NCBI RefSeq assembly: GCF_009730915.1
Contig: NC_052490.1
Coordinates: forward strand, 31,930,625 to 31,994,624
Reading direction: 5' to 3'
Source: Dioscorea cayenensis subsp. rotundata
Taxonomy: Eukaryota > Streptophyta > Magnoliopsida > Dioscoreales > Dioscoreaceae
Length of the DNA stretch: 64,000 nucleotides
This document shows, piece by piece, positions 1-44,737 of the stretch (positions are counted from its first letter, which is position 1; each line of letters opens with the position of its first letter). A program made the position numbers and the translations under genes. Under the pieces are notes generated by a model. The model was not told where the DNA came from and did no database searches. It saw only the letters and a program-made list of their open reading frames with translations.

Positions 1-1156
1 ATGCTTTCAAATTAAGTTCTGCTCTATTGTCGACTGTCCAGCAAGACATTATTTCATAGTCGAGAAGAATTAATATACATGATGCTATGCAAAAATGAAG
101 GACGGACATGTTCATGTAACTCAAAAGGCAGATGTAGTAGTTTTACCCATATATATATATATATATATAGATATACACATACATATTAAAAAAATAATGA
201 CTCTGCACGCAAAACAGGGCTGGACAAAAAAACAGAATAAGGACTAGTTTGGTATGAAATAAAAATACAGTGAAAATGCATGCAAGTCATTTTGAAGCAT
301 TTGTGCTTTAGACCAAAGTTTATTTTGTGCAATGCAAATCATTTTGATACGTCTTTTTTCTTTTTGGTATGGTGTCCGTTAAAATCCAACATTTTGCTGT
401 ATTATATGTTTGTGTTATGATCACTAATCTAAGCAGAGTTAAGGTTAGCCCTCGCTATTTTTAACTACCAACTTCTAGACATTTGTTATCACCAAAAAAA
501 TTTTAATAATCATTTTTTTTATATTATAGACTCTAATTATCAACTCATTAAATTTAAAAAAAAAAGAATCCTTTACATAAATACACCTTCAAAAACTTGA
601 GTTTCACATACACCCGGGACTCAAATGAAAAATTGAAAAGGCTTTCACTATTTTATCTAATTTATAATATTCTTCAGGATTTATGTGCAAAATTTCAACA
701 ATGGTTTGTTAAGATGTCCGCTCGTTATTTTAGCACCTAAGCTTTTTTACATTTCACATATAGAATTATTATCATAATAAATGGTGTAAAGCCCAGGGGT
801 ATACATACAAAGGCCACATTTCAGGGGGTTTATTTACATGACAAGTGAGAAGACCACTTACACTAATGTACGGTGAGGTAATGAACCAGCAGCTAACTTG
901 GCTGCAAGTTGTTTTGTTATATTATAGGGTCTAGATGCAACTGAACTTACACAGCAAGTAGTGGCTTGCATGTTATCAAAAACTCAAAAGAAGCCACATG
1001 TATGCATAGTTCACTTCCAATACACCTACTTACTCAGTTACTCCACATACCAAACATGCCCTAAATGAACCTAGGTTTGACAATACAATATCAAATAGGA
1101 AAAATCAATAAAAAATATTATCAAAATTGTTGACCTAGAAAGATAAAGGAACTTAC
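1..1156 (-). other. Intron of the ADNT1-like gene running off the left edge
   Basis: The last visible exon of the carrier gene ends at 1157 with a good GTAAGT donor on the minus strand. I found no exon encoding the expected following segment of the carrier in 1-1156, so this stretch is read as the 5' part of a long intron. It is AT-rich, with a TA microsatellite near 152-172, and shows no other coding signal. Confidence 0.6.
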
Positions 1157-4100
1157 AACTCCTATAACTGAAGGAAGCCAGCCTTTGTACAAAGCACGAA
1201 AGCCTTCTTCCCGAAAGACTGTCCGTAAGGCGTGAAACATACCACTATACTGATAAGGAGACTTCTCGGTCTGTATTATTAAAAATATGACAAAAGCAAA
1301 ACAGAAATCAAAAAGATGATTTAGGCAAATAGTCTTAAAACTATATATCTGGGTAAACACAGATCAGAACATACCTGAACAGTTATCCTGCCCCGTACCA
1401 TATCCATAGGATAAGTGGCAGACATTGCAATAATTCCAGCACACGCTCCAGCCCCAAGACGCAATACAGGTGTAAGCTGAGCATCCTCTGAATAAATCAA
1501 CACATAAGTTAGAAGAAATAATTCTAAGTTGTTCTTATATTAGAACCGTAATATACAACAGTGCATACAAATTTGGATGTTCACTTATGTCCAGTCTAAG
1601 TCCAGCCAGATCCCTTACTATAACCACATGGAGCTCTGCACTATAGTTAACATGGCATATTAACAACACCATTCAATTTCCTTTCAAATCTTTTGTTATG
1701 AGCAAGAAAAAAAAATCAAAGCTTTTTAAACACAGCAGATGGATGAACACAGGCATAAGCATGGAAAGTGGTATTACTTGCTATCTTTTCAAACACTGAA
1801 AAGCAATCAGTGAAGGAGATTGTTGCTCATTAGCTTGATGTTTTATGTAAAGGGCAGCCAATGAATAAGGCACTGGAGAGTATGAGTACTAGAAAGGGCC
1901 CAAATTCTAATGTAGACAGGTTCATCCTTGCTTTTGCAAATGTGCAGACAGGTTTTACAATATTTGCTCTGGATTAAACACGCTTCAGCAAAATAGAATA
2001 TAAATTGACGTAGTACAAACTTATCAGGGGAGATTAAGCCTTACCATTGCCAGTCTGCTGACGGTAAAGCCATAAAATCCCGCTGTTGAAAACAAAAGGA
2101 AATTTTGAAATGAGGAAATAAATCATATTAAGTATATACCTGTAATTATTTTCTTACATTCACAAACAAACTCAAGTTAAGCCACAATTATAATTATTAA
2201 GCAGGTGTAATTTATTATAGAATCATTTTAATTACTTAATTGATTCAAACAAATTCCAGTCATTATCACACAGTCGTTGTGCAATAGATTATCCAAATGA
2301 AAGGAATGTTCAAAGAAATCTAAATAAATAAATAGAACAGCATATATGTGAAACACATCATATATGTGAATATATATTATTATAATGCATGAGCTCTATT
2401 CCACACCCAAACATTCAAGCTAGCAAACAAGGACACATGTAACCCATAACACCTGATGATCCTTAACTTCAAGGTAAATTTCTAAGGAATAAGCTAAAAA
2501 ATATTACAAATTAAAACTAAATTCCTTGAAAAACAGGCTGCCAATGTCGCTATTAATTAAAAAACAAAAAAAATCAAGAGAATTGTTCCATTTAAATCGA
2601 GGATTACTTTAATATTCAAAGCAAAACAAAAATTGTCCACAACCCTTTATATACCAGTATGCTACATAGCTACTCATGTAAAATAACAGAAAATTGAAGA
2701 TGGTGTCCATGTAACAATTAACAAGATCTTATAATGTACACAAATAGAAACAAACTTATATCTCATATGTTGCTTTTGTCTAGTTATATGAAATTTAATG
2801 AACAGAAGAAAAGGAAACCTGGAGGCACGCTCATAACTAAAGAATTTCACAGCTGAATTTGGAACTATTCGTGCACAGTTGGTACCATTGCCTTTGAATA
2901 ATCCAGTAAAACCTTCAGTTCTCCAAATATACTTGAGGCCTTGCATGGTTCCACTATACTTGATGCTATGAGGATTTTGGACCTGTATTTGGCATAGGCA
3001 AGAAACATAGTGCAGTTCAGGTAACAGCTTCCATGAAGCAAGACTTCTGTACTTCCAGCAAAGGCAAAGGAAATGAACCACAACAAAATCTCGGTTTCTT
3101 TTTTCTCAAATAAAACCCCATAAAGGATCAAAGTTATGCAACTGTTTCATTATAAGGAATAGGTAGGATTGGGGACACAGACATTATGGAAAGTATCACG
3201 CTGTGTGAAACCACATCAACAATTAAAGTACATGAATACATCAGCAAACAATTAAAGGCAATTTGGATCTAAAATCTGATAAATATGCCATTCTCAATCA
3301 CCATTGCCACTTATCAACAGAAGTGTAATGAAGGTGTGTCCATGAATCCAATCCTTGACAGCAAAAGATGCCACCGCATCAATGATGCTAGGATAAGGAC
3401 ATGGGTACCAACTACAAAGTATGGGAGAGTATTAGATAATTGAATTTAATAAAAAACCAAATAAGTGACCATAAAGATATATTACTTAAGAATTAATTTA
3501 TAGAAATAAAAAAAATATTAAAAATAAATTATGAAGGTTATCACGGTGAAAAAGTGATGATGTAAATTTTTAAAAAAAAAAATACAGAGGGATCAAATTG
3601 AAAAAACTAAGATGGAGTCGAGAATGGAAAGGAGATAAAATGAAACCACAACCCTCTAGTTCAAATATACTAAAGTAGGATCATGTGATTCAATGTGTAC
3701 CCACTGAAAAGATACAACATGTAGCAACAAAACAAAGGATTTGCTATATTTTGATGCAAACTATTAATTGACAGTAGACTTCCAGAATGAGCTGAGAAAG
3801 AAACATATCTTTTACAGCATTATATATTTATATGAGAACAAGTGGAAAACTATGGCTGAAATGTAGCAGTAAATAAGCTGAATTCACTCAAAATCAAGTA
3901 ACAGGCATCTACCTGAAGCAAGATTTTTAACCTCTCAAGTGGGGCAACAGCAGTCCGCGACCTGAAAGACGGGTGGATCAGAAATTTTTTAGATCACATA
4001 GGAAGAAGCAGATAAAAACCAATTTTGCATGTTGCATTTACACACTGGTTATCAAAGATTCAAAATCCAAAACTTCCTTGATTAACCCTCCTTAACTTTT

Positions 4101-4983
4101 GAACACTACTCCCATACAGTTCTTTGGATACAAAATTTTTTTTATTGTTTTCATAAATTATGATACAGATAGTCCTGTACAAAATGATCATTAAATTCCA
4201 GATGAAACTAAATAGAGATTAATTTCTATCCTACTACATTTGAAATGTTGGAATTTTGGTCTCGTTTTCCACGTTTGGTACCAAGAATTAAGACTTCTCC
4301 ATTTTAGGGTAAACTAAAAGCATTCTCATTAGATCAAGAGAAAAAAGCGAAATAAATAAACCAGAAAAACTAATCACAACAATAAAAATCAGAGAAAGTG
4401 ATCGCAATAATCTATAGATGTAAAAAGATAAAGAAAAAAACAATCTTTATGACTTATTCATCAGTTTTCCTCACAGCACCCAAACAGGCCCCAAACAACT
4501 CTTTAAGAAACGTGAAAAAAAGATTCCCAACACCAAATTATAAACCCGGACTTATACCAAGAAAAAAAAAAATCCCAATCTTGATGTTCAAACAATGAAT
4601 AAAGTCACTAGTTACCATCTTCAGAAGCAAACCATGATTACAATAACAATCTTACAATAAAGTAACGCCAATAACCACTCACCAACAAACAGTCTAGCAA
4701 CACGACACCAACTACAATAATAAATCTCGATAATTTCACAGTATTAAACCATTCGAACAAAAAAAACAGATAAAAAAGAATCATTAATCAAACAAATGTA
4801 AGGATATAGGGCTCACACTCCGCCAGCGACACCACCAGCGATGAGCGACCTGAGAACGCTCGCGATCGCATACTGAGGAGCCTTAACATTCTCTCTAGCA
4901 AGCTTCGCCTCCTCAGCAAGGTTCACGATCGTGTTCACCGCCGACTCCCCCGTGCTCTTCCCCACAACGTCCTCGGACGCCAT
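1157..4983 (-). CDS. ADNT1: Mitochondrial adenine nucleotide transporter (ADNT1-like), 5' six exons, 3' partial
   Basis: Mitochondrial carrier family protein of the inner membrane. Arabidopsis ADNT1 exchanges AMP/ADP/ATP. Exons on the minus strand: 4983-4817, 3961-3913, 2982-2819, 2082-2045, 1487-1375 and 1270-1157. All have GT-AG borders, and together they give exactly 215 codons. The ATG at 4983 begins MASEDVVGK, as in ADNT1. The first carrier signature is APLERLK and the second is TYPMDMVRGR. GNGTNCARIVPNSAVKFFSYE and LRLGAGACAGIIAMSATYPM match the ADNT1 clade very closely. About 215 of roughly 350 residues are present, so the third carrier repeat is missing because the gene leaves the window, not because it is broken. 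Splice sites were read by eye and the product is assigned by recalled similarity. Confidence 0.9.
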
Positions 4984-5212
4984 AGAAACCCTAGAAACAA
5001 AAAAAACACCGAATTCGCAACCCTAGATGACAGAACCCAATCAATCCCAGCAGCTCCGAGGGGCGATCAGGCCAAGGCGGCCATTTCCTCTCCTCGTCGA
5101 GTTCCTCGTCGGCGGCGGCGTCGGCGGAGACGGAGGTGGGAAGTCGAGAGGGAAATCCAAAGGGGAAGCGAGAAAGAGAAGTCGGGGAACTGGGGTTTAG
5201 TGGCGGCGTTGG

Positions 5213-11644: not shown

Positions 11645-14239
11645 TTTTAAAAATTTTGCTCATATTTCTTCCTTGCATGTCCATCTTCATTATCTATTCA
11701 GTTAGAGTCATGAGTTGTTCAGTATAATCCATTTTTGTTATGCCACTAACACATATTTATTATTTTGCTAATCATATTTCTTTTTCTTTAATTAGAGCAA
11801 TTAGCTATTTCAATCCATCATTGTCATATCCATTAGCTTATCAGACTCATTCTCATTTCTTTTCTTTCATCCTTCTAGCCATTTTAACTTATGAAAAAAA
11901 TAACAACGTTTAATGGAGTGTTATAATGAAAATTAAGAAAAAGAGGAAAACAATGAACAAAAGAGAAAATAAAATACTACAATACAAGAAGAGAAAAAGA
12001 TGATTAATAAAAGAAGCACATGTATATATATATAAGAAACATTTAAAATTAAAAGGGGAAAAAAGAAAGTAAAGGATAAAAGAAAAAGACAAACAAAAAG
12101 ATAAAATAAGAACAATAAAAAAAATTAATTTGAAGTCTGCTCTTGATTGAATTATAAGTAAAAATTGGTGGCATTTTTGATCATTGCAAAAATGTCCAAA
12201 GACCTTTATTGCACTTTTTCTATAAAATAACAATAATATTAGTAGTGGTATCAGTTAATTTGAAAATTTTAAAGAGTTTTTCTGGTCAATGTGCAAATGT
12301 GGTTGACAAGACCCAAAGGCCAGAATTCACATGGATCAACTTGACCAAGTTCACTAATGAAATACACTGGCAGTGTTGTTATTATTATTATTATTATTAT
12401 TATTTTATGTTATTTTAAATTAATCTTTGGTCCAATCTGACCAACGTGCATGATTAGTCATTTGCTCCTTTTCAAAGTCTACTATTAATACAATTCCAAC
12501 TCTTCTTTTGTCATCTACTCACTATTATTAGTTTTTCTAAAGTCATTGTCTCTAAGATATGCTTTCTCCCTTATTTTCTCCTGCATCTTTTCCTTTCATA
12601 TTAACCCTTGTAAACTTTATAATTAACAATAACTATTTGCACAACAAATATTCGTAACCTATTGACATCTGTTGTTCCTTTGAGGCGAGTGAAAAACAAA
12701 AAGTTTGAATCTACTGCACATATCAAAATGAGGGCAAGATCACAAGCTGGACATTTAGAAAGTTCATATACCTGATTTTAAATACAATTCTTTCCCCGAC
12801 TTGCTTTTATTTTTCTTTTTCTATCACACGATTTCACTTCCTGACCTAGGGTCAGATTGGTTTATAACGAATCGAGCTTTATCTATTTACATGTAACTTA
12901 TATATAAAATACAATCATCTATGATATTAGAAAATTTTATTCTATAAGGGAGTTTCCAAATCATCTATTTTTTATTTATAATTCACAAGAGACTTATTCT
13001 ACATGTATATAATTCATTAAAAACCTTTGATATAATGGGACATATATGAGTAACTTTTCACCCAGATAACCCCAATTACCTCACAAGACTTTAATCACAT
13101 TCCACAATTTAATATTCTAGATTAAAATAAAAGGTCATTAGGTTGGATAGCATGCACCAAAAGATTAGGTCAATAACCATAATAATTCATTAAGAAATCA
13201 GTGAACATGCAAAGCATTCCAAAAGATAACACTCTCGAAAGATGTCAAAAGATAAAATCAAAATTCGAAATAAACAAAGATACTAAAATCATGCATCGTC
13301 CACTACATAAAAGCCATACAAGACTTAATTAATTACTTAAATATATTAATGATTAATTAGATCAGCACATATTGGTATCCTCAAAATACATATTATATAA
13401 AAAGCAGCAGTACACTTTGCAGGAACTGAAGTTTTGATACAAACCTACATCAAATTAATACGAAAAGTATAAGGATCAAGCATGAAAATTGCATGTTTTG
13501 ACTTTAAAAGTTATCGATATTTTAAAATCTTGCACAGTTATATATATTTTTATCTAGAAATTTCTACTTCTAATTAAATGTTGAGATGTATGTTGTGATA
13601 AAGCTATTGACATCCAAAATGATTTTGGAACTATCACATTGAATAGACATACCTTGGAAATCTATCTATAGGCCTACGTGTATTAATTTTGAGATGTTTG
13701 GCGGGATGTAAATATAGGTGTATTAGTATAATAATAACGAGGCACTAATATTAATTAATTATACTACAAAATAACAAGAATGATCACAAGATAATGGAGT
13801 AGTTTGAGTTGGCAATCCTTCCCATTAATTCATGGTGGTGCCTATCCCGTCATACAACCATTATCAAGTCACTAGTGCCAAATTCACCCAGTAAATGACT
13901 CAATCTAGCCAAACAAGTCCACTCATCTAATTTGATTTTTGTTATATTTATCTCTATATATAGTATATATATATATATATACGAGAACTTGATTATCTGG
14001 TGACGTCCTGTGATTTCAAATCTGTAGACGTTCCATAGATTTACCCACGAAAATCACGGGCCTATCATTACGTAATAAAGAAAAACCGGTTTGAAGAAAA
14101 CAGACAGCTATCAGCTAATGTGAAAAAGACGTTTAAATTTATATAATCAATCAAATCCATCTAATGTACGACCCAATCATTAGAGTTTAAAAAATATCCC
14201 TCAGATTCAAATCTTGCACGCCCTAGATGTGATGCTTTT

Positions 14240-14275
<36 letters not shown>

Positions 14276-14496
14276 TTCTTTATAATTTTTTATATTCTAT
14301 ATGAAGTTTCTAGATTATGGTTAGCTGTTGGTTAAAATAACTGAAAATGATACTCTAGTCAGCTACCAACATCTAATTAAATAATTTATACTATAAATTT
14401 AAAGAGTTTTAAATACATTGAAATTATTTTTAATATTTTATTGATTTTTGGGGTGCTACCTTGATATATAAATAATTGCAAGGTTTTGTAAATTAT
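11645..14496. repeat. Direct repeat copy A, ending at the assembly gap
   Basis: This stretch matches 15515-18368 in the same order and orientation over its whole length. Examples are GAGTTGTTCAGTATAATCC near 11712 and 15567, and the block around ATGGATCAACTTGACCA near 12331 and 16195. Differences are mostly one- to few-base indels and local scrambles. Copy A stops at the first N, exactly where its counterpart continues past 18368 into unique sequence. It holds no gene. The minus-strand ORF at 11910-12233 is an AT-rich shadow that recurs in copy B. Confidence 0.9.
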
Positions 14497-15496
14497 NNNN
14501 NNNNNNNNNNNNNNNNNNNNNNNNNNNNNNNNNNNNNNNNNNNNNNNNNNNNNNNNNNNNNNNNNNNNNNNNNNNNNNNNNNNNNNNNNNNNNNNNNNNN
14601 NNNNNNNNNNNNNNNNNNNNNNNNNNNNNNNNNNNNNNNNNNNNNNNNNNNNNNNNNNNNNNNNNNNNNNNNNNNNNNNNNNNNNNNNNNNNNNNNNNNN
14701 NNNNNNNNNNNNNNNNNNNNNNNNNNNNNNNNNNNNNNNNNNNNNNNNNNNNNNNNNNNNNNNNNNNNNNNNNNNNNNNNNNNNNNNNNNNNNNNNNNNN
14801 NNNNNNNNNNNNNNNNNNNNNNNNNNNNNNNNNNNNNNNNNNNNNNNNNNNNNNNNNNNNNNNNNNNNNNNNNNNNNNNNNNNNNNNNNNNNNNNNNNNN
14901 NNNNNNNNNNNNNNNNNNNNNNNNNNNNNNNNNNNNNNNNNNNNNNNNNNNNNNNNNNNNNNNNNNNNNNNNNNNNNNNNNNNNNNNNNNNNNNNNNNNN
15001 NNNNNNNNNNNNNNNNNNNNNNNNNNNNNNNNNNNNNNNNNNNNNNNNNNNNNNNNNNNNNNNNNNNNNNNNNNNNNNNNNNNNNNNNNNNNNNNNNNNN
15101 NNNNNNNNNNNNNNNNNNNNNNNNNNNNNNNNNNNNNNNNNNNNNNNNNNNNNNNNNNNNNNNNNNNNNNNNNNNNNNNNNNNNNNNNNNNNNNNNNNNN
15201 NNNNNNNNNNNNNNNNNNNNNNNNNNNNNNNNNNNNNNNNNNNNNNNNNNNNNNNNNNNNNNNNNNNNNNNNNNNNNNNNNNNNNNNNNNNNNNNNNNNN
15301 NNNNNNNNNNNNNNNNNNNNNNNNNNNNNNNNNNNNNNNNNNNNNNNNNNNNNNNNNNNNNNNNNNNNNNNNNNNNNNNNNNNNNNNNNNNNNNNNNNNN
15401 NNNNNNNNNNNNNNNNNNNNNNNNNNNNNNNNNNNNNNNNNNNNNNNNNNNNNNNNNNNNNNNNNNNNNNNNNNNNNNNNNNNNNNNNNNNNNNNN
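14497..15496. other. Assembly gap of 1,000 N
   Basis: A run of unspecified bases of round length, which usually marks a scaffold join of arbitrary size. The ORF that spans it is meaningless. Confidence 0.98.
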
Positions 15497-15514
15497 TCAG
15501 TTACGCATGTTGCT

Positions 15515-18118
15515 CATATTTCTTCCTTGCTGTCCATCTTTCATTATCTATCTAGTTAGAGTCATGAGTTGTTCAGTATAATCCATTTTATGCCACTCAA
15601 CACATATTTATTATTTTATTAATCATATTTCTTTTTCTTTAATTAGAGCAATTAGCTATTTCCAATCCATCATTGTCATATCCATTAGCTTATCAGACTC
15701 ATTCTCATTTCTTTTCTTTCATCCTTCTAGCCATTTTAACTTATGAAAAAAATAACAACGTTTAATGGAGTGTTATAATGAAAATTAAGAAAAAGAGGAA
15801 AACAATGAACAAAAGAGAAAATAAAATACTACAATACAAGAAGAGAAAAAGATGATTAATAAAAAGAAGCACATGTATATATATATAAGAAACATTTAAA
15901 ATTAAAAAGGGGAAAAAGAAAAGTAAAAGGATAAAAGAAAAAGACAAACAAAAAGATAAAATAAGAACAATAAAAAAAATTAATTTGAAGTCTGCTCTTG
16001 ATTGTAAAAAAAAAAAAAAATTATAAGTAAAATTGGTGGCATTTTGATCATTGCAAATGTCCAAAGACCTTTATTGCATTTTCTCTATAAATAACAATAA
16101 TATTAGTAGTGGTATCAGTTAATTTGAAAATTTTTAAAGAGTTTTCTGGTCAATGTGCAAATGTGGTTGACAAGACCCAAGGCCAGAATTCACATGGATC
16201 AACTTGACCAAGTTCACTAATGAAATACATCATGTTGTTATTATTATTATTATTATTATTATTTTATGTTATTTTAAAATTAACTTTGGTCCAATCTGAC
16301 CAACGTGCATGATTAGTCATTTGCCTCCTTTCAAAGTCTACTATTAATACAATTCCAACTCTTCTTTGTCATCTACTCATTATTATTAGTTTTTCTAAAG
16401 TCATTGTCTCTAAGATATGCATGCTTTCTCCCTTATTTTCTCCTCACATCTTTTCCTTTCATATTAACCCTTGCAAAACTTTATAATTAACAATAACTAT
16501 TTGGCCAACAATATTCGTAACCTATTGACATCTGTTGTTCCTTTGAGTGCGAGTGAAAACAAAAAGTTGAATCTACTTCGCTACATCAAAATGAGGGCAA
16601 GATCACAAGTGGTACATTTAGAAAGTCCACACACGGTTTTAACATATGAATTTTCTCTCTCTCTATTGTTTTTATTTCTTTTCATTGTTTTTTATCGAGT
16701 TTCACTTCTGGTGACCTAGTTTCTGTATTTTGTTTATTTTTTTTAATGAATCAGTAGTTTATCTATTTAAAAAAACATGTAACTTATAAGAAAATAAAAA
16801 TACAATCATCTATGATATTAGAAAATTTTATTCTATAAGGGAGTTTCCAAATCATCTATTTTTTATTTATAATTCACAAGAGACTTATTCTACATGTATA
16901 TAATTCATTAAAAAAAACCTTGGATATAATGGGATATATATGAGTAACTTTTCACCCATATAAATCTCAATTACTCTCACAAGACTTTAATCATATCTCC
17001 ACAATTTAATATTCATTAAATAAAAGGTCATTAGGTTGGATAGCATGCACAAAGATTAGGTCAACCATAATAACTAATAAAACAGTGAACATGCAAAGCA
17101 TTCAAAGATAAACAAATTTTTTTTTTTTTTTTTCGAAAGACAAAGATAAACAAATTAAATAAACAAAGATACCAAATTTTTCATGCACGTCCAACAACAA
17201 AAGCCATACAAGACTTAATTAATTACTTAAATATATTAATGATTAATTAGATCAAAGACATATTGGTATCCTCAAAATAAATATTATATAAAAAAGTAAA
17301 GTATTAATTGCGGAACTGTTTTGATACAAATCACATAATTAATACGGAAAAGTATATGATCACATGAAAATTGCATGTTTTGACTTAAAGTTATTGATAT
17401 TTTAAAATCTTGCACAGTTAAAAATATTTTTTATCTAGAATTTTACTTAATTAATGTTGAGATGTATGTTGTGATAAATATTGATCAAAATGATTTGGAA
17501 CTATCACATGAATAGACATATACCTTGAAATCTATCTATATATCACGTGTATTAATTTTGAGATGTTTATGGATAAATATAGGTGTATTAGTGTATAATA
17601 ATAATGTGATAAGACTAATATTAATTAATTATATTTAACAAATAACAAGAATGATCACAAGATAATGGAGTAGTTTGAGTTGGCAATCCTTTTCCCATTA
17701 ATTCATGGTGGGTGCCTATCCTGGTCATACAACCATTATCAAGTCACTAGTGCCAACCACCCAAAGTAAATGACTCAATCTAGCCAAACAAGTCCACCAT
17801 TCCAATTTGATTTTTGTTATATTTATCTCTATATATAAGAAATATATATATATATATATATGAGAACCCATCATCTAGGGACGTCCCTAGATTTCAAATC
17901 TAGAGATGTCCATAGTAGCCATCGGATGAAAATCTGACGGCTCTTATCATTATGAACAGTAAAAACCGTGTTCTACAGTGTTGTACAGTTATCATGAACA
18001 GTAAAAAAGATGTACAATGTTTATATAATCAATCAACCATCGGATGATGATCCAACGGCTTAGATTTAAAAACATCCCTAGATTTGAAATCTAGGGATGT
18101 CCTAGATGATGTTTTCCC

Positions 18119-18149
<31 letters not shown>

Positions 18150-18368
18150 TTTTATAATTTTTTTTATATTCTATATGAAGTTTCTAGATTATGGTTATTG
18201 TTGGTTAGTAACAACTGAAAATGATACTCTAGTTTAGCCACTAAATATCTAATTAAATAATTTATACTATAAATTTAAAGAGTTTAAATAATATTGAATT
18301 ATTTTAATATTTTATTGATTTTTTTGGGGGGTTTTGGATATATAAATAATTGCAATATTTTGTAATTA
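15515..18368. repeat. Direct repeat copy B, starting at the assembly gap
   Basis: Second copy of 11645-14496. It begins within about 20 bases of the end of the N run and continues beyond 18368 into sequence absent from copy A. It reads as the better-quality version: the MITE inside it (17861-18120) has near-perfect inverted ends, while the equivalent part of copy A (about 13981-14250) is corrupted. Confidence 0.9.
17861..18120. mobile_element. MITE with ~42 bp terminal inverted repeats inside TA tracts
   Basis: The left end reads TGAGAACCCATCATCTAGGG and continues to about 17903. The reverse complement of the right end (18078-18120) reads TGGGAAAACATCATCTAGGA and continues in the same way. 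The ends also contain small palindromes such as AGGGACGTCCCT. The element lies between two (TA)n tracts, consistent with insertion at TA. It has no coding capacity and is about 260 bp. A degraded counterpart is present in copy A at about 13981-14250. The family is probably Tc1/mariner-like or Mutator-like, and I cannot decide which. Confidence 0.75.
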
Positions 18369-20740
18369 TATTTCTAGGTGTATAATATGACAAAATAGAT
18401 TGCTTGTAGTTGTGGCCATATATGGTTTTATATAAAATTAATAAAAATAAATATATTATTTAGAGAAAAAATTATATATTTTTATTTTTATATTTTATTC
18501 TATAATTATAAATTAATCAATTTATATTAGGTTTTTTTCTATTCAAACAAGCAAGAAAGGTGTGAATTACAAAGACTACGTGCAAGTTAAGTGCACCATC
18601 ATCATCATCGTAATTGCATGAATTAAATTAATCTCTTAGAACATATAAAACAAAAAAAATATCATGATATAGATCTATATTTGTCTGTGGTTTAGAACAA
18701 AGTCTAATGTTTTATTGTCACATTAAAAATATATATAATTTTTCAAATTCCACTATTGCCTTTAAATTCTCAATAATAGCAAAAATAATAGTAAGTCATC
18801 TTTCTAAACTTCAAAGTTTTAATAATCAAGTCTCTGAAGCTTCTTTATTTATATATACACATAAAAACACAATAATTCATATAAGTAATATTTATAAATT
18901 ATTTTTACTATTTAAGATTCCATTAAATAAAAAGGTGAAAAATAATAAAAAAAAATAAGTAAATCACAAGGGACAATTAGGTTAAGAATTATGGAGGGAA
19001 ACATTGGAGTAAATGAGACATGGTTTTTCACCAATGTTTATTTGGGCACATGAACATGTCCCGACCAAAGTCCGACGAAAGTTATTCATGTTCATTGAAT
19101 CATTGCAATTTGTTCCACATCACAAAATGTCAATAATTTTAAAAATAATGAATTCCAAACATCTCTCTCTAATATTAAAAAAAAAAGAAAGTTGCCTAAT
19201 AAATAAATAAATAAGCAAATCACATGTCCCTTTAATATTTACAATAATCAAATTTGATTTTACATGAATTCTTCTATGCCTTCCTTTTTAAACATCAAAT
19301 TAATATTTTTAATTTTGTAATATTTTTTGACACTAGACGACAAGCACCCCTATTTAAAGTTAACAGTCATAGATATGCACTGATGTGGAACGCATTCACA
19401 AGCTTAACGAACATCATACTCTCATCATGCGAGACTCAGAAAACAAAAACCTTACATAAAAGATCCCGTATCAATAGGTCAAAAGGTCTTTGATTAATTT
19501 TGTAATATCAAAATTACTCATATTGTGCGAATGTTATTGTTTTGCATGTTTTTCTTCTTTAACTTATTTTTTCATCTAATGTTTTTTTTATAGTCGTTTC
19601 GTTTTTTTCTTCTCGTAGTCAAACATCTCTCCTCTTCTCTTTTTTTATGTTTCTTCTCGACATCTTCTTTATTTATATTTATTGTAGAACTCCCTTGAAT
19701 ATATATATATATATATATTTCAATTTTTTCAATGAGTTAAAATGTCAAAAAAAAATTAAAAAATAAAATAACAAGACTGATTTTGGAATAACTTAAAAAT
19801 TAATAGTTTGGAGAGGAAGAAGAAGGAAAAGATCAAATGGAAGTGAATTTATAATACTTTGGTGTTATTAATAAATAATGAATCATGGCTAGCTCAGACA
19901 CATCTATTACACAAACTGTACTATTACTTACTTTTTTACTTATTTAAAATCTAGAAATTGTAAGTAAATTTTACTTATTTAGAACTTCCACTACTTGATT
20001 AACTGAGAGGTGAATTCATTTTCATTTTCATTTTCATTTTCAAGTTACCTGCATAGAGATATCCACTACTACTCACTCAAATTACAAGTATACCTACTTA
20101 GAATTTAATCATGGATTATGTACCACTAAGAGTACAAATTAAATATAAAAAAAATTAAATTTCAACCATAATAAATGAGATAACCTGATGGTTAAGAAGT
20201 TCAGTTTCATTTTGGAAGTATGGTTAAAATCCAAGCACCAATAAATAAATAAATAAATAAATAAATGGAGACCTTACATCATAAATAAATCAATGTTATT
20301 ACATGAGATTCCACTAGCAAAACCAACTAACCAAGTACATCCGAAGGGATATTTACTTCGACCCCCCTGAAAATACTGAAATTACTTGTCAGTTCTTGAC
20401 AAATATTTAATAATCAAAAGACTGACTTTTCAACATCTCTCACCTAAAGAAAATTAATAATAATAGTTAGTAAATTCCAAAATTTCACTTCACTGTTTTT
20501 TTTTAATTTTTTGAAAAAAAGGATTTGAGTTTATTGCTTTATAGCAAACATTTGGTTCAATGATCAAATAATAAACCTGAGGTTCAGATATTTAATAAGG
20601 GTGTTTTTGCTAAAAAAATAAATAAAGGGGGTAAAATGTAAAAGATTAAATTTGGAGCTTATAAGATGATGAAGCTTCCCTCCTCAATGGCATCACTGAA
20701 AACAAACATTATAATAAAAAAAAAAAATATATAAAATATA
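18369..20740. other. AT-rich intergenic DNA upstream of the GH3 gene
   Basis: No supported gene. Several short plus-strand open frames (18707-18958, 19013-19210, 19254-19493) are low-complexity and lack family resemblance. There is a tetranucleotide run of AAAT type at about 20241-20264 and a short TTTTCA repeat at about 20020-20041. Confidence 0.55.
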
Positions 20741-21179: not shown

Positions 21180-23895
21180 ATGGGAGTTTTCAGCTTAGAA
21201 AGCGTAATTGAGGCCTTTGAAGCCTCCACCAAGGATGCTGCTCAGGTTCAGAGAGAGACTCTGAGATGGATTCTGGAAGAGAACTCTGAGGCTGAGTACT
21301 TGCAAAGCTTGGGTCTTGCAGGGAGGACTGATCCTGAGAGTTTCAAGGCTTGTGTTCCATTGGTAACTCACAAGGATTTGGAGCCTTATGTTCAGAGGAT
21401 TGCTGATGGAGATTTCTCTCCTGTTCTCACTGGGAGTCCAATCACTTCATTGTCTTTGAGGTGTGTTCTGACTTCTTGCCTCTGTATTGTTTGTTGAAAT
21501 GATCATGGGTTGAGGTTACTGAGTTTTCTGTTTGTTTCTCTGTGTGTGTGTGTGTGTTTTGCAGCTCTGGTACTACACAAGGGAGACCCAAACTTGTGCC
21601 TTTCAATGAAGAATTGGTGAAGTCCACTATGCAGATATATAGGACTTCCTATGCTTTCAGAAATAAGTATGGAACTCATCTGTTTTTGATTGATTGCTTG
21701 ATTGAGTTTCTTTGATATCATTTGGGGGACTTTCAGTATCAATTTCTATTATGAGATCTGTCTGTGCTGCCTTTCACTTTCTTTGGTATTGAATGCCCAT
21801 CAAGTTGCTTTTTTTCTTTATGAATTATGATCTTTACTTCATATGGCACCTGCTTTTAGGAACTTTGCATGAATTAACCATTATTATCTCTTTCCTTTCC
21901 CTTTTTGTTGATTATCCCCAGTGCCTTTTCTGTTGCTGATGTTTGGTTTTTCTTGTTCTATATTCATCATTTGTAGCTATTTTAAATTTGGTACATGATA
22001 AGTTCTTATGCTCATGATTTATTAGTTAGTAACTAAGAAGTTGTTCTGCTAATTTTGATGTTCAAATGGTATTCAATTAATAATCACAGAGAGTTCCCCA
22101 CCATGAATGGAAAAGCACTGCAATTCATCTACGGCAGCAAGCAATTTATGACGAAGGGAGGCCTTACTGCAACGACAGCTACAACAAACGTCTATCGTAG
22201 TGAACAATTCAAACACACAATGAAGGATATCCAGTCTCAGTGTTGTAGCCCTGATGAAGTTATATTCGGTTCAGACTTTCACCAGTCCCTGTATTGCCAC
22301 CTCCTATGCGGCCTAATCTTCTCTGAGGAAGTGCAGCTTATATCATCTACATTTGCGCACAGTCTTGTCCACGCATTTCGAACATTTGAGCAGGTGTGGG
22401 AAGAACTATGTGATGATATCAGAGAAGGAGTTCTCTCTGACAGAATCACTATGCCCGCAATGAGAGATGCTGTGTCTAAAATTCTGAAACCCAACCCGGA
22501 GTTGGCCGATACCATACGTGACAAATGTGAGGGTTTAAGTAACTGGTATGGTGTGATTCCAGTGCTTTGGCCTAATGCCAAGTATGTTTATGGAATCATG
22601 ACTGGATCGATGGAACCATATTTGAAGAAGTTGAGGCATTACACAGGAAGCTTACCATTGATGTCTGCTGATTATGGATCTTCGGAAGGATGGGTTGGGG
22701 CTAATATCAACCCTTCATTGGCTCCTGAGTCTGCAACTTTTGCCGTGCTTCCAGATATCGCTTATTTCGAATTCATTCCTCTCAGCGAGAATTCAGAAGA
22801 TCAAGAGTTAGAGCAGAGTTCTTCTACCTCTCATAACACAGAATTAGAGCCAGTTGGATTGACAGAAGTTGAGGTTGGCAAAGAGTATGAGATTTTGTTC
22901 ACTAATGTTGCAGGTAATTGTGAAAAGTCACTAATTGTTTCTTGTTGCTTCCTTTTTCAACTAACATTTAGTCGTAGGGATTAGGGATTATCTCTTTTGG
23001 TGTTAAGCTGCTGATCAAGTTGATAGCGAATTAGCAGTTAACACCGGTAAGGAACGCGTTTTGGTTAAGGACAGAGACTTTGGCTCTCTAGTCTTTGTTG
23101 ATTTCCTCTTTCACCTAACCTCCCTGATTAAATTTCATATAGAAAGCGACAAATCATAGATTAATGCTCATTAGATGTAACTTCAACTGCTGATAGATGA
23201 AGAAACCAGCTGAGGCATGCCCTGTATTAAAGTTTTGGTGCTCATGTTGTTCCTTTTAGTACCGGAAATTATTCTTACAGCTTCTGTATTCATATGTGAT
23301 TATCAAATTAATATGTTCTAATAACAATCTCTGGTCTTCATTCCAAATGGCAGGTCTATATCGTTATCGTCTCGGGGATGTTGTGAAGGTTGCTGGCTTT
23401 CATAACTCGACACCGGAACTCAGGTTTGTTCGCAGAAGAAGCCTTCTTTTAACCATAAACATTGACAAGAACACAGAGAAGGATCTCCAACTGGCTGTTG
23501 AAGAAGCCACCAAGCTCTTAGCAGCTGAAAAACTTGAAGTTGTGGATTTCTCGAGCCATGTTGATGTTTCTACAGACCCTGGACACTATGTGATCTTCTG
23601 GGAGCTGAGCGGGAATGCCCGAGAGGATGTCTTGAGCAATTGCTGTGACTGCTTAGACCGTGCCTTTATCGACGCAGGCTATGTTAGTTCAAGGAAAGTT
23701 CGTTCCATCGGACCTCTTGAACTCCGGATTGTTAAAAGAGGCACCTTCCAGAAGATCCTTGACCACTTCCTGTCTCTCGGCGCGGCCGTGAGCCAGTTCA
23801 AGACTCCACGCTGTGTCGGTCAGTCAAACAGCAAAGTCTTGCAGATACTTGATGATAATGTCATGGACAACTACTTTAGCTCTGCATACGATTAA
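21180..23895 (+). CDS. JAR1: Group I GH3 acyl-acid amido synthetase, jasmonoyl-isoleucine synthetase-like
   Basis: ATP-dependent acyl-adenylate/amido transferase. The JAR1 clade makes jasmonoyl-isoleucine in the cytosol, the active ligand of the COI1-JAZ receptor. Exons 21180-21460, 21565-21666, 22090-22913 and 23354-23895 give 582 residues, the usual GH3 length (JAR1 is about 575). Nucleotide-binding motifs are visible: SSGTTQGRPK across the exon 1/2 junction, YGSSEGWVG, and LYRYRLGDVVKVAGF at the start of exon 4. TNVYRSEQFK, HAFRTFEQVWEE and VDVSTDPGHYVIFWEL follow JAR1 closely. The ATG at 21180 gives MGVFSLESVIEAFEAS. An acidic and serine-rich insert (about ENSEDQELEQSSSTSH) is variable in the family. 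Substrate preference cannot be read from sequence, and the paralogous GH3.10 type is the main alternative. Confidence 0.92.
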
Positions 23896-28339: not shown

Positions 28340-29269
28340 TAAATAAAAAATAAACCTCACCTAACCCATTCCCGCAAAAAACCGTGAGACAATATAGTTC
28401 ATTACCCAATTCATTTCTTTTGTGTTTGTTTCTCTTTTATATTCTCTTTCTTGTTTTTTTTTCTCTCTGGATGTTAGTAGAATGTCCATAGTCGATGTTT
28501 TATATATACTCTAATGATTAGTGAAAGGTACATGAACACAAGTATTTTTCGCATTTTATGCATAAATATGATTTATATACTTATTTTCCACTCCAACAAT
28601 TAATTTTTAAAATAAAACTACAATGTAAAGTTGAATTTGTTTACAAGAGTTATCAAAGATTAGCAAATTTTTTTTTTTATATACACATGCTAAAACTAAT
28701 GTTGGCAAAAAAACCTTTTTTTTTTTTTAAAATAAATGTGGATAAATCACAGTTTTATTGAATAAAAAGAGACAGTGAACACAAAATCTTTTCTTTTTAT
28801 CCATATTTTTTAAAATACAAATTCAATGTCTAATGAAGAAAATATTATATATATATATATATATATATAAACTAATTGATGTGGACATTGAGATGAAAAA
28901 AACACTTGATATGATATATACACGTCATTTTTCATTTTAGTAGAAATAAAATGGAGTATAGTGTGGTTGAGAAAATTACAGTTGAAGGGAGTTTATTTGA
29001 CTTTTCCCAAATCAAAATCAAAGCTTAAATTATTATAATTTAGATCATGAAAACCCCATAAATTCTAAGGATTTGTATGGCAAAGATTTGTTTTAAAAGG
29101 ATAAACCATCATAATTTATTAAAAAAAAAAAAACATATGCATCTTGATCAGAACACAATGAAACTTGATGAGATATTAAATGCGCATTCAATCACATAAT
29201 TAAAGATTAGACAACCCTACAAAGAGCATGGTAAAGAGGTAAAAAATATATATACAAGAGGCCCGTAAG
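28340..29269. other. AT-rich intergenic DNA
   Basis: No supported gene. Poly-T runs and a TA tract at about 28848-28869 are the only visible structure. Confidence 0.5.
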
Positions 29270-29805
29270 GGTGATGTGTAGTGCTTCTAAAAAATAATAA
29301 TGTGTAAGGGTCATCTATTTCTAGTTGTTCTCTTACTCAGTCTCAAGTATACCAAAGATTTAACTTCATTGGTAAAATGCCTAAATTACCCTTTATATAT
29401 ATATTCATACAAAATCTCCAAATAATGAAAAAACAAAGTTTGAGTAATAATTTCCTTTTTACTAATATTTAACCATTATTAAATTATTAAAATAATTTAT
29501 TTTTTACAAAAATATAAACAAACCACATCAATATATAAAAGGTGATGTGTAGTGCTTCTAAAAGATAATAATGTGTAAGGGTCATCTATTTATAGTTGTT
29601 CTCTTACTCTCAGTCTCAGGTATACCAAAGATTTAACTTCATTGGTAAAATACCTAAATTACCCTTTATATATATTCATACAAAATCTCCAAATAATGAA
29701 AAAACAAAGTTTGAGTAATAATTTCCTTTTTACTAACATTTAACCATTATTAAATTATTAAAATAATTTATTTTTTACAAAAATATAAACAAACCACATC
29801 AATAT
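29270..29805. repeat. Tandem direct duplication, two ~266 bp units
   Basis: Unit 1 (29270-29535) and unit 2 (29540-29805) both start GGTGATGTGTAGTGCTTCTA or near it and end AACCACATCAATAT. They differ at only a few bases and short indels. The units are noncoding. High identity points to a recent duplication. Confidence 0.9.
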
Positions 29806-30019
29806 CATACCAGCTACCCAATATCAATCGATCAAGTAATTGTCTGCATTAAAATAAAATAAATAATACACATAAACATATTTTTAATCTTATTTTTTAA
29901 GAAAAAATAACCCAAACCGAACCGCCTGCATACAAATTTCTCCCTAACAATAATACTAATACTAATTATTATTATTATTATTATACAAATAAACCAAATT
30001 TTTAAATAAAACCCCAAAA

Positions 30020-30501: not shown

Positions 30502-32984
30502 ATGGACCTCCACCACCACCCCTCCTCCTCCTCCTCTTCCCCTTCCAAACCCCTCCCCACCCTCGACGCCGGCGCCGCCTTGGTTCTCAAATCCAAAGGT
30601 CCCACCTTTTTTTCACCTTCTTTTTCTTTTTGCTATATTTCATCCTGTTTCTTTGTTTGATGGATCATGATGATGGACGTGATGATCAGGGACTTGGTGG
30701 CATGCTGGGTGTCACCTCACCACCGCCATTGTTGGCCCAACAATCCTCACGCTGCCTTATGCTCTGCGTGGCCTTGGCTGGGGTTTGGGGCTGGTTTTGC
30801 TCTCTGTGATGGCGTCTGTCACTTTCTATGCTTATCTTCTCATGTCTAGGGTTCTTGAGCATTGTGAGAGGGGAGGACGTCGGCATATTAGGTTCCGGGA
30901 GCTCGCCGCTGATGTTTTGGGTATTATTGTTTTGATTGATGAATCCTTTGATTAGATTAATGGTTTTAAATTTCAATTGAAAGTGATTTTTGATGAATTT
31001 TGCTGGGGATTTGGTGTGTAGGGTCTGGATGGATGCTCTACTTTGTGGTTTGCATACAGGGAGCAATCAATACGGGAATTGGGATTGGTACCATTCTGCT
31101 TGCAGCTGACTGTCTTCAGGTTGGTTTGTTCATTGATCATCAATGCTATTTATTCCTTTTGCCTAACATTCCATCCTTGATTAATTTCTATCATAAATGT
31201 TATTGATGTATGAGTGAATGCTTTCCTTTCAAAACCCAAATATAGGAAGGTATGAATGAATTAATGCTTTCCTTTCAAAACCCAATTAATATAGGAGGAT
31301 TAGGAAATGTATACGAATCAAAATGCCAAATGAGATGAGAAGAGAATGGATTTAGAGACTCATTTGATTAATTATTCACTTGTTTAAGTAAATTGTAGAA
31401 GTATCTAATCGATATCTTACTAATGATTGCATTTCTGTAATTGACACTGTGAATTTTTCTTTTTAATTTGTTCTTTTCGTGTTTGCTACTTGCTTGGATT
31501 TGAGAAGATTATGTACTCGGCTGCCAGTCCCAATGGTCCTCTGAAGCTATACCATTTCATTATTATTGTGACGGTGGTGCTAATAATCTTCTCTCAGCTT
31601 CCTTCTTTCCATTCACTTCGCCATATCAACCTTGCCTCGCTGCTTATGATAATTGGTTACGCTGTCGTTGTGGTTGCTGGATGCCTTAATGCAGGTCTTA
31701 GTATTGCTTTCACTTCATTAATTTCCTAAATTTTTTCGAAGATTATAATAACTGTTTAATAAGAAGGTTTTGCGCTTGTTTTCTCTATTTTAGTATCTGT
31801 CTTTTGTTTCATGTCCTGTCCGCCTAATCCTTGATATATTCACCATTTGGAAACAAGTTGTGCAGGCCGGTCCAAACTAGAATTTCTCTTGTAATTTATT
31901 AGATTTATGCACAATTTTGTCTTTTCAAATCAAAAAGAGAAAAAGAAAAGATAGGTCTTACCAAACTTCCATTTAATAGCTACTATATATTAGAAGAGTT
32001 TACATTTGGAGGAAGTAATTGAAGAGAAACTAACAATTAATCTGTCTTTCAATGTTTACAGGTTTTTCAAAAAACCCTCCTCCAAGGAAATACTCACTGG
32101 ATTCTTCCAAGTCCAATCGATCTTTCAACGCATTCACTTCCATCTCCATATTAGCTTCAATTTTTGGCAATGGAATATTACCGGAAATTCAAGTATAATT
32201 AAGCATTCCACATACTGCATATTAATTGTTCTGATACACATCCATGATCATTTAGTTAATTTCATGATTCATTAATCAGGCAACTGTGGCTCCTCCAGTT
32301 GCTGGCAAGATGCTGAAGGCGCTCTTGCTCTGCTACTCAGTCATCTTTGTCACCTTCTACCCGGTTGCAATCTCCGGGTATTGGGTATTTGGTAATGAAG
32401 TGAACTCAAATGTTCTCCAGAGTTTAATGCCGGATTCCGGTCCTTCTTTAGCTCCAACATGGCTACTAGGTCTTGCAGTAGTCTTCATACTCCTCCAATT
32501 GGTTGCAATTGGCTTGGTAAGTAATTAGCATAATTCAGTGAATCTCCTACTGATGATTACATCAAACCAACACCAAAATGCAAAAACTACACAGGTTTAC
32601 TCGCAAGTCGCCTATGAAATAATGGAGAAGAACTCCGCCGATGTGAATCAAGGAACTTTTTCAAAAAGAAATCTTATTCCAAGAATAATTCTAAGGACTC
32701 TTTATATGATATTTTGCGGTTTTGTGGCTGCAATGTTACCATTCTTCGGTGATGTAATTGGTGTTGTTGGAGCCATTGGTTTCATTCCACTGGATTTCAT
32801 TCTCCCCATGCTCTTGTACAACATGGCTATCAAACCTCCAACAAGATCAGTTATGTTCATGCTTAACATGTTCATCATGGTGGTCTTCACTGGTGTAGGG
32901 ATCATGGGTGCTTTCTCCTCTATTAGGAAGCTTGTCCTTGATGCTAATGAGTTCAGTCTCTTCAGTGATAATGTTGTTAATTGA
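30502..32984 (+). CDS. Amino acid/GABA transporter (AAAP family, probable GABA transporter 2-like)
   Basis: Multi-spanning proton-coupled amino acid permease of the plasma or an internal membrane. Seven exons: 30502-30598, 30690-30920, 31022-31119, 31508-31694, 32062-32192, 32280-32516 and 32595-32984. They give 456 residues. Exon 2 encodes [20 protein letters not shown], and exon 3 encodes [19 protein letters not shown]. Exon 4 carries [13 protein letters not shown] and exon 5 [11 protein letters not shown]. Exon 6 carries [12 protein letters not shown] and exon 7 [15 protein letters not shown] and [20 protein letters not shown]. These match the Arabidopsis protein annotated as probable GABA transporter 2 throughout, including the end [18 protein letters not shown]. 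The ATG at 30502 ([13 protein letters not shown]) is in a different frame from the longer open frame over it. True substrates are unknown. Confidence 0.9.
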
Positions 32985-33550
32985 TCATTGAGATATGTAT
33001 GTTATGAGATGCAGAACATACAGTACTCCAGTGTAAAATTTCATGCCTTTTTCCTTTCTTCTGATTCTTTTTTATGCCAACTGTTTTAAGCTTGTTCTTG
33101 ATGCTAATTATTTGATCATTGAGATATGTATTTTATGAGATGTAGAACATACACTCCAATGTAAAATTTCATGCTTTTTTTTTTCGCTTTTATGCCAACT
33201 GTTTGAAGCTTGCATGTTCTTGATGCTAATGAGTTCAGACTCTTAAGTGATAATGTTATTAATTGACCAATGAGATATGTGTATATATATATATATATGT
33301 TATGAGATGTTGAACAAACACTCCAGTTTAAAATTTGATCCTTTTTTTCTGTTTCATTTATATATATACCAAATATTTGAAGCTTGTTCTTGATGCTAAT
33401 GAGTTCAAACTGATCTTTAGTTATAATGTTATTAATTAATTGTTCAATTATATGTATGTTGTGGGATGTAGAACATACACTCCAGTGTAAAATTACATCC
33501 TTTTTGTTTTTCTTCTGTTTCATTAATTTGTACGGCGCCAAATGTTTCAA
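32928..33550 (+). repeat. Four tandem copies of the transporter's last coding bases plus 3'UTR
   Basis: Units begin with AAGCTTGTTCTTGATGCTAA or a close variant at 32928, 33088, 33206 and 33380. Each runs through TGAGATATGTATGTTATGAG, a motif like AACATACACTCCAGTGTAAA and a T-rich end. Copy 1 contains the real final 18 codons and stop. Copies 2-4 are downstream and noncoding. Copy 2 lacks the block between GATGCTAAT and TTGATCATTGAG. Copy 3 carries a TA microsatellite. The minus-strand ORF 33116-33550 is a shadow of these repeats. Confidence 0.85.
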
Positions 33551-36284: not shown

Positions 36285-37367
36285 AACTCTCACGAAATTC
36301 TAAACTAAGGGAATAATTAACATGTAATTCACCATTATAAAGATTAAAATTCTCATGATGATCATTAAACATTGCATGTATGCAATGCAAAGATAGATTA
36401 AGATTATCAAACTATTTTTTATTTTTGGTTAAAGAAGTTATATAGTAACTATTATTAGATTAAATAAAACTTACGCAGATGTAAAATTCAATTAATTAAC
36501 ATAGCTTTGATTAAAACCAAAATCCAGCAAGCTTACTAACCTTCATCATGATCTATTCAAGGAGTTCTATTCTTCTATAAATTAGTGATAATTTATCAAC
36601 CAATTTAATCTCCAATAAAATTCAAACGGAGCCAAGGAGGTGAAAGAGGCATGATCTCTTGATTTTTTTTTTTAATATAAATTAATACTTATAATATAAA
36701 AACAAAATTACATTTATAAAATATTTATAAAAATTATACTTTTGTCCCTCTGAGGCTTTGTACAAATTAATACACACATATAATAAAATTATATATATAT
36801 ATATATAAAATATTTACAAATTTTTTAAGAAAATTATTATTATTATTATTATTATTATTGTTATTTATTAAAAAAATTCTAGCTCAGTAGTGGGTACGGA
36901 TAATGAAACAAAAACATTTCGCCCATAATTATTGGGGGAGATGTCTTTCATGAAACATTCAAAAATGAGAAATGAGTTTGTATGTAGATGCATGTCTGTG
37001 GAGCAGTGCAGTGACCACCACTATTTCTATTTCATACCTCTTTCGTGGTGCCATTTAATGCCCCTCTGAATCACCATTTAAGCCTTTGGCTCTGAGGTTA
37101 CATGAGTCATTAATGAAGCCTCACAGAAAGAGAGTTAACTCGGAGAGAGAAATATATACACCAATATATATATATATATATAAAGGCTGCTTTGATTGAT
37201 TGGCTATTTATTTCTCTGAGTTTTTTTGTGTTTTTTTCCTGACCATTATTTATTGCTCTCTTTGTATAAAGCTGACTTTGGTGGCCTCCATTTTTTATAC
37301 GGAAAATGACATTGATTTTTTTTTATTTTTATTTTTCATGCTACATTTAATAAAAAAATATTTTTTT
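36285..37367. other. AT-rich intergenic DNA
   Basis: No gene supported. It has an (ATT)n run at about 36835-36861 and TA tracts at about 36791-36805 and 37164-37180. Confidence 0.5.
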
Positions 37368-37627
37368 ATTAAATTCAAGAACAAACAAGTTCATTATTAA
37401 TTTTGGACTCAAGCTCAAATTTAAACTCACTCTATTAAAGATAAAAAAATAATTTAATAAATATTAATTTAAATTTTAAATACTTTTTTTAAATCATTTT
37501 ATTAAATTCAAGAACAAACAAGTTCATTATTAATTTTGGACTCAAGCTCAAATTTAAACTCACTCTATTAAAGATAAAAAAATAATTTAATAAATATTAA
37601 TTTAAATTTAAAATACTTTTTTTAAAT
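37368..37627. repeat. Tandem direct duplication, two ~130 bp units
   Basis: Unit 1 starts ATTAAATTCAAGAACAAACA at 37368 and unit 2 starts with the same bases at 37501. They are nearly identical through AAATACTTTTTTTAAATC. The repeat is noncoding, and its low divergence suggests a recent event. Confidence 0.9.
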
Positions 37628-39329
37628 CCAAGCACTAATTAATAATAGTGCTTGTTCATTATTAGAGGGATTAAATAAATGAACAGAAAATAGAATGGGA
37701 ATTACTGTTTTGTCATTTAGTAATAATCAAGGGTTTATGATGATCTACAGAACTTGCTTTGAATTTTGGTGCACAGCCTTCAGGTAACAGTACCACGGAT
37801 GCTTTGAATAACTTCACATGAAAAATGATTTTAAATTTAACTATATATATAAAATCTAAATAGTGAGGTTATTTTCATTATTTCATGTATTCTTGTTAAC
37901 ATATTTAACAGAGAAGATTTTCTGTAATAAAAATATATACTAATTTATCATTCAACATTAATAACATAAGTGTTAAATTAAACTCTACAATTTATTCATG
38001 AGTTCATGTATCAGATGAGAAAATTCATAGAGTGATCATCATGAACAACAGTAATTAATTCATGCAATGAACACTCCTCTCAAGTCTTCTTCCCAAACAT
38101 ATATCATCATATCTTTCTGTCCCTTTTTTATTTTTTTTTAGTTTTTCACTTATATTAATATTTAAATATTTAAATTCTCCCACTTGCCATGCATATAATT
38201 AAACAAGACATGCAGATGCCATTGCCATGTCTTGTACCAATTTATTTCTCTCTGGAAAACTTAAAGTCTATATATATATACATGCATGCATGGGATGGGA
38301 ATCATCAGTGATTATATAGTTATCACAAGTAGTTGAAATAAAACAAGACATAGATGGATCATAAGGGTACCCTGCACTTGTTGAAATGGCAAATCAATGT
38401 GCAGGCCTGAGATACATATAAAGAGAGAGCAGTGAGTAGTGTTTGAATGAGTATCAAAAGAAGAAGATGAGTTACATGAATGAGTTGTCGTTCTGACCTC
38501 GCAGTGTAGCAGTGTATAGTGTGTGTTTAATTAAGTATCATTCATGGCTGTTTTGAGCTCTTTGTTAATTAAATGCGAAAGGAATAGTTTAAATATGGGG
38601 CCACATATGCATGAATGAATTACAATTAAGCTTATATATATATATATGTATGTATGTATTTATTTATTTATTTTTGCAGATTAAATTTAATGAAGCCTAT
38701 TGAATTCGAATCTATTGATATGCTTTGGATGAGAATGTTTTGCTCAAATTAATTAATCTATATGGTTCAACTTTTGCAGTTGCAGTAGAATTTTTGAGAA
38801 TTATGTATTCAGCATGCATGGGTGAGAACTGAACACATTAAGTTAATTTCCTCAGTTAAATTTTTATATGCTCATTTGTGCATAACTCATTGCATTCTCA
38901 TAAGAAAAAAAAAAAGATTTTTTTTTTTTTCAAACATTAAACATTATCTTTAGATTAGAATAGTTTTAAAATTAATTACCTTTTATTGAGAAAATGTAAA
39001 CTAGCCAGTATATATATATATATATATATATCCGTATGGTTATCACATATTTATTGACATATTTAATTTTTTCAACATAAATCACAAATCAAGATTCATT
39101 TCTTTTAAAGATTCAAGTTGAAAAAAAAACTATTAAATAGTTTTTTTTGTCTTAAAATAAGCAATAAAAAAAACATAGTATTGCACATCAATAATTTATC
39201 CATAAAGAAAAATTATAAAAACATAGAAGATATAAAAAAAAAAATGTAAACACAAAGAAATATTATTCATATTTTTATGTACTATCCTCTTTCTCACATT
39301 ATTTTGTGTCCTATTTATTTTGTGAAAAA
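37628..39329. other. AT-rich intergenic DNA
   Basis: No coding gene recognised. ATACATATAAAGAGAGAGCA at about 38413 could be a TATA element followed by a purine-rich leader, but no ORF of merit follows. TA tracts occur at about 38636-38647 and 39010-39031. Confidence 0.45.
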
Positions 39330-44366: not shown

Positions 44367-44737
44367 GGTAAATTTTTTAGTAATTCATTAAATTTTGACT
44401 CATTTTCATTTTGATCATCAAACTTCAATTTACATTAATTTGGTCATTCAATTTTAATTTGATTTCACTAGGTAATAATTCAAAGATTTCAACCCCCCAA
44501 TTGATTACATAGCCGTCTAAAAATTAGAGTCAATCCTCCCCATGACACATTATTAAGTCTATTGGAGTTGTCCGTATCATTGAAAAAGAACCATATCATT
44601 CATTTGAGAGACAAAATCTTTTGATTTGTTATCAAGTAAAATCAAATTAAAATTGAGTGACCAAATTAATACAAATTGAATATTAATGATAAAAATAAGA
44701 ATGAGCCAAAATTTAATAATCTACTAAAAAATTTACC
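44367..44737. mobile_element. Long-TIR MITE (~371 bp, TIRs ~100 bp)
   Basis: The left arm begins GGTAAATTTTTTAGTAATTC. The reverse complement of the right arm begins GGTAAATTTTTTAGTAGATT. The match continues with scattered mismatches for about 100 bases, including ATTAATTTGGTCA and CAATTTTAATTTGATTT in both arms. The flanks contain the similar 9-mers TATTTTTGT and TATTTTTAT, suggesting a roughly 9-bp target duplication and hence a Mutator-like origin. It is noncoding and lies between SPCH and SEH1. Confidence 0.75.

Follow-up and report, generated by a model that had tools for sequence, protein, structure and literature searches.

We found that a stretch of approximately 2.85 kb, which stands twice around a gap in the window (the whole 64,000-nucleotide stretch of DNA that was analysed), is very probably a single genomic stretch written twice by overlapping contig ends that were left unmerged, that is, an artefact of assembly rather than a biological feature, as judged from the assembled sequence. 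This explanation had been proposed in the initial annotation and is now supported by an adapter remnant at the start of the second copy (copy B), by the indel spectrum of the differences between the copies, and by an outgroup comparison pointing to the first copy (copy A). We propose that the left contig would have ended in low-quality nanopore consensus, which is copy A, and that the right contig, opening on a leftover read adapter, would have started 2.85 kb earlier on the genome, giving copy B. The overlap would have stayed unmerged, probably owing to the error load of copy A, and a scaffolder may have ordered both contigs with a fixed 1,000-N spacer, a size that recurs in the assembly. Most likely, the plant has a single copy of the stretch, in which case 11653-15506 (~3.85 kb, Ns counted) is surplus and copy B should be preferred as the reading of it.

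The window contains exactly 1,000 Ns in a single run at 14497-15496, an unstranded scaffold gap of presumably arbitrary size, other gaps also being exactly 1,000 N. Self-BLASTN of the window aligned 11653-14496 (copy A) with 15507-18369 (copy B), both on the plus strand, at 86.7% identity over 2,971 columns, with 161 mismatches, 163 gap openings and a bit score of 3075, while the second-ranking self-repeat of the window reached a bit score of only 440. Chance can be set aside as a source for so long a match. Copy A, 2.84 kb on the 5′ side of the gap, was delimited by the self-BLAST and binned differences as the error-rich end of the left contig, chiefly from ~12653 onwards. Copy B, 2.86 kb on the 3′ side, forms the start of the right contig and is mostly good consensus according to BLAST, alignment and the outgroup; judged by eye, its opening ~60 bases may hold a few errors. 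The match extends to the final base of copy A before the Ns and begins at the 11th base of copy B. The gap between two ~2.85 kb copies that the initial annotation had described was therefore seen, and the alignment it had proposed was run and recovered the 86.7% match. Its coordinates were right to one base at the ends and off by 8 bases at the starts (11645 in place of 11653, and 15515 in place of 15507), and the abutment of the copies on the gap was confirmed, with copy A running to 14496 and copy B matching from 15507 after 10 adapter-like bases. As expected of a false duplication, a gap of 1,000 N separates the duplicated pair on one scaffold, and both copies stop at contig ends, so that a single copy would connect the unique sequence on either side.

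A query of 2,670 bases of copy B was then compared with the 584 Mb assembly (2,249 contigs), in which the window lies at C20:31930625-31994624. Among the matches listed (40 of 749 candidates), copies A and B were the only full-length ones and no third full-length place was found, the remaining listed matches covering only an internal dispersed element of ~300 bp.

The differences between the copies are dominated by small indels. Global alignment of copy A with copy B gave 2,594 matches, 101 mismatches and 166 gap events in 3,012 columns; 99 of the gap events were single-base and 59 were homopolymer changes. When only isolated differences were counted, defined by 8 identical bases flanking the difference on each side, we identified 30 indels and 5 substitutions. 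In contrast, copy B differed from six other copies of the dispersed element by 7-12 mismatches and 3-5 gap openings each. Indel-dominated differences are typical of uncorrected long reads, and the differences between A and B look like long-read error. Summed over bins, 42 difference events fell within the first 1,000 bases of copy A and 225 within the remaining 1,844, a spread that fits decay toward the end of the left contig. The errors of copy A are also patchy, with perfect long runs (e.g. 11812-12008) next to garbled ones, and polishing could be the cause, if short reads attach only to the accurate parts of the draft. The many small indels that had been ascribed to copy A are thus borne out by the 166 gap events and by the tested part, described below, where nearly all departures lie in A. 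Two causes had been suggested for them, of which poor consensus is upheld by the outgroup and the indels. The alternate haplotype can have contributed little at most, given only 5 isolated substitutions compared with 30 isolated indels.

The dispersed element inside the copies made it possible to ask which copy departs from normal sequence. In copy B, this MITE-like element lies at 17842-18138 (plus strand), as delimited by BLAST, genome search and outgroup alignment; its terminal inverted repeats are 91% alike, TA repeats flank it on both sides, it matches its own reverse complement at 70% over its length, and it occurs at 90-96% identity in at least 39 further genome places. The version in copy A, garbled and with limits taken from the alignment, lies at 13963-14264 (plus strand). 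Six members oriented alike (L003-L008), out of the 39 listed places, were used as the outgroup. Copy A departed from the family in 114 of 315 agreed columns, a count whose substitutions are inflated by the MAFFT columns in garbled stretches, and copy B in 8 of 315. The members themselves, each compared with the other five, departed in 10/323 (L003), 14/324 (L004), 8/318 (L005), 6/316 (L006), 14/323 (L007) and 20/322 (L008) columns. Where A and B disagreed and at least five of the six members agreed, the odd one was A in 109 columns, B in 3 and both in 2, with 7 columns omitted from this count as the family was split. True duplicates or alleles should share the departures about evenly, yet A holds nearly all of them, indicating that A is the wrong copy. 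Measured against its element family, copy A is shown to be erroneous in the part tested, which spans ~300 of 2,850 bases (about a tenth) and is among the worst parts of the copy.

We further examined the boundary between the gap and copy B. The 10 bases directly after the last N have no counterpart in copy A and are adapter-like. At 15497-15514 (plus strand), the Oxford Nanopore ligation adapter, whose sequence is printed in PMC7490894, appears to have left a remnant of its tail. In this remnant, the 9 leading bases are exact, followed by two inserted bases and one mismatch, and the last ~5 bases could equally be plant DNA. Free local alignment was equivocal: 75 of 20,000 shuffles of the first 30 bases of copy B scored at least as high as the real sequence, and a site near 20311-20345 (minus strand) outscored the copy B start (29 vs 22), although that site does not carry the exact 9-base adapter word present at the copy B start. 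Exact 9-base adapter words were found at two additional sites in the window. In the anchored alignment, in which the first base is set against the adapter end, the copy B start scored 22, whereas no score above 15 was reached at any of 12,000 sites sampled from the window (6,000 positions, both strands). This anchored test was devised after the free local result; it is the sole clean adapter test and the basis of the adapter claim. At the end of copy A, no adapter was seen (free local score 9). Since copy B opens with what appears to be an adapter tail, its left edge would be a read start, not a genomic junction or breakpoint.

Adapter tails of this kind were also found elsewhere in the assembly. 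A genome-wide pattern scan with 18 adapter bases, allowing at most one mismatch, gave 30 matches (18 plus, 12 minus), while the reversed pattern used as a control gave 0; the remnant at copy B falls outside these 30, its inserted bases exceeding the one-mismatch limit. Thirteen of the 30 matches adjoin gaps at no more than 6 bases and three more at approximately 100 bases or less, and all 16 of these gaps are exactly 1,000 N. The 13 gaps with an adapter no farther than 6 bases from either edge of the N run are L019, L021-L025, L027-L031, L033 and L034, indicating that untrimmed adapters persist in the assembly. The orientation of the adapter fits a read end at the contig end in 14 of the 16 gaps and is reversed in L012 and L022. 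On unplaced contigs, five of the 30 matches are no more than 50 bases from an end (three oriented as expected, L018 and L037 the opposite way), and one is 389 bases from an end. Because adapter tails recur at contig ends of the assembly, the start of copy B fits that pattern.

The other 8 of the 30 matches lie within contigs (L009, L010, L013, L014, L015, L020, L026 and L032). No N run was found within ~1.4 kb of these internal tails, the nearest at L032 being ~1,450 bases off, and no repeat or inverted repeat joined the two sides of any of the eight sites within 1.5 kb per side. By eye, about six of the eight show an end-adapter-like remnant immediately before the start adapter, as if two molecules had been read as one. 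These eight sites are probable false joins inside chromosomes.

We then asked how the other adapter-marked gaps compare. With 9,999 bases taken from each side, a comparison beyond whose reach an overlap above 10 kb would lie, none of eight other gaps showed an end-to-start overlap; two of the eight had other matches, which were non-terminal. Unmerged overlaps are thus not the rule in the assembly. The remaining eight of the 16 gaps were compared with flanks of 0.5 kb against 1.5 kb: six were without a match, L029 had a match of 33 bases, and L031 (on C19) had a longer one, in which left positions 275-779 matched right positions 1-500 at 88%. The L031 match, which had looked like a second overlap, was dropped as evidence because it falls in a dispersed repeat, found at 87-94% in no fewer than 39 further places among the matches listed (40 of 6,933). 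Since the literature search found no paper for 1000 Ns with LACHESIS, we leave the scaffolder unnamed.

Among the alternatives, a heterotype false duplication, in which two divergent haplotypes of one locus are assembled side by side, would be improbable here. This kind was the main source of false duplication in three vertebrate species (PMC9516828), and in the first, cleaner kilobase of copy A, a handful of differences, e.g. 4-base insertions, could be allelic. However, isolated indels exceed isolated substitutions six to one in raw counts of 30 and 5, and the departures in the element belong to A (109 columns against 3 for B), whereas both alleles should look normal. The element of copy A stands far off its family when compared with copy B and the six members, so that the two copies do not both read as real allelic sequence. 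The opposite pattern, with errors confined to one copy, is what the indel-rich spectrum and the family departures point to, the latter within ~300 of 2,850 bases.

A real tandem duplication at which the assembler broke is very unlikely. Repeats can break assemblies at their edges, which would also place both boundaries at the gap. However, the boundary of a real duplication should be a genomic junction, and here an apparent adapter remnant precedes copy B, so that the left boundary of the repeat would have to fall on an adapter-marked read start by coincidence. Moreover, copy A deviates from normal sequence where it was tested, and 2.85 kb is short relative to nanopore reads, which counts against a tandem repeat having broken the assembly. 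We give just as little credence to the variant in which a genuine recent tandem duplication lies upstream of the neighbouring GH3 gene and its first copy was badly sequenced. Direct repeats a few kilobases long with a gap in between could also represent the two ends of an LTR retrotransposon with its body inside the gap, but this is the least probable reading of all and can almost be dismissed. Both repeats would need to have a boundary precisely at the edge of the Ns, and the places listed beyond copies A and B (40 of 749) match the ~300 bp element only; with no long-copy family among them, the search argues against retrotransposon ends. The longest N-free ORFs, of 114 aa in copy A and 102 aa in copy B, carry little weight, as terminal repeats would look alike in this respect.

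One stretch written twice by unmerged contig ends would be an instance of a phenomenon that is already known, and the pair appears to fit the published class of homotype false duplications. As described in PMC9516828, this kind arises from accumulated read errors, and gaps between duplicated pairs on one scaffold are listed there as a sign of false duplication; the pair here likewise lies on one scaffold, with a gap between its members and read-error-like differences. However, that study decides by read depth and k-mers, whereas the homotype here was judged from the assembled sequence alone. The false segmental duplications of PMC2864568 are similar in being apparent recent duplicates made by assembly software, but that account concerns polymorphic regions of diploid genomes, whereas here error outweighs allelic difference. 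Similarly, haplotypic duplication in primary assemblies, as treated in PMC7203741, shares a region present twice and a break in contiguity; its cause there is haplotype divergence, whereas the present pair lies within one scaffold and differs by errors.

Copies A and B sit between two divergently transcribed, plant-like genes, both outlined from ORFs only. The left neighbour, at 1121-5022 (minus strand), is mitochondrial-carrier-like: of four scanned ORFs, three carried Pfam PF00153 and the fourth (4816-5022) matched no Pfam family, and the 5′ part at 4813-5022 was assigned by eye. The right neighbour, at 21180-23895 (plus strand), belongs to the GH3 family (Pfam PF03321, PF23571 and PF23572), and its start codon was chosen by eye within the ORF. 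Farther to the right, PC-Esterase, HLH, DUF3593, WRKY and sigma-70-region-3 domains were identified, with three of the ten ORFs scanned giving no family. Taken between ORF limits, the carrier-GH3 spacing would be overstated, at ~16.2 kb in place of ~12.3 kb, and studies of promoters, repeats or duplications at this locus would include a spurious duplicate in their counts; the relevance is one of quality control only. Beyond this locus, the adapter remnants point to additional contig ends in the assembly and to joins that are probably false.

The window also carries other, smaller repeats. Two head-to-tail duplications were observed, one of ~272 bases at 29267-29809 (96% identical) and one of 132 bases at 37364-37628 (99% identical). 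An inverted repeat with arms of ~124 bases, 86% alike, lies at 44367-44737, and a cluster of diverged direct repeats, 77-84% alike, occupies 32927-33521.
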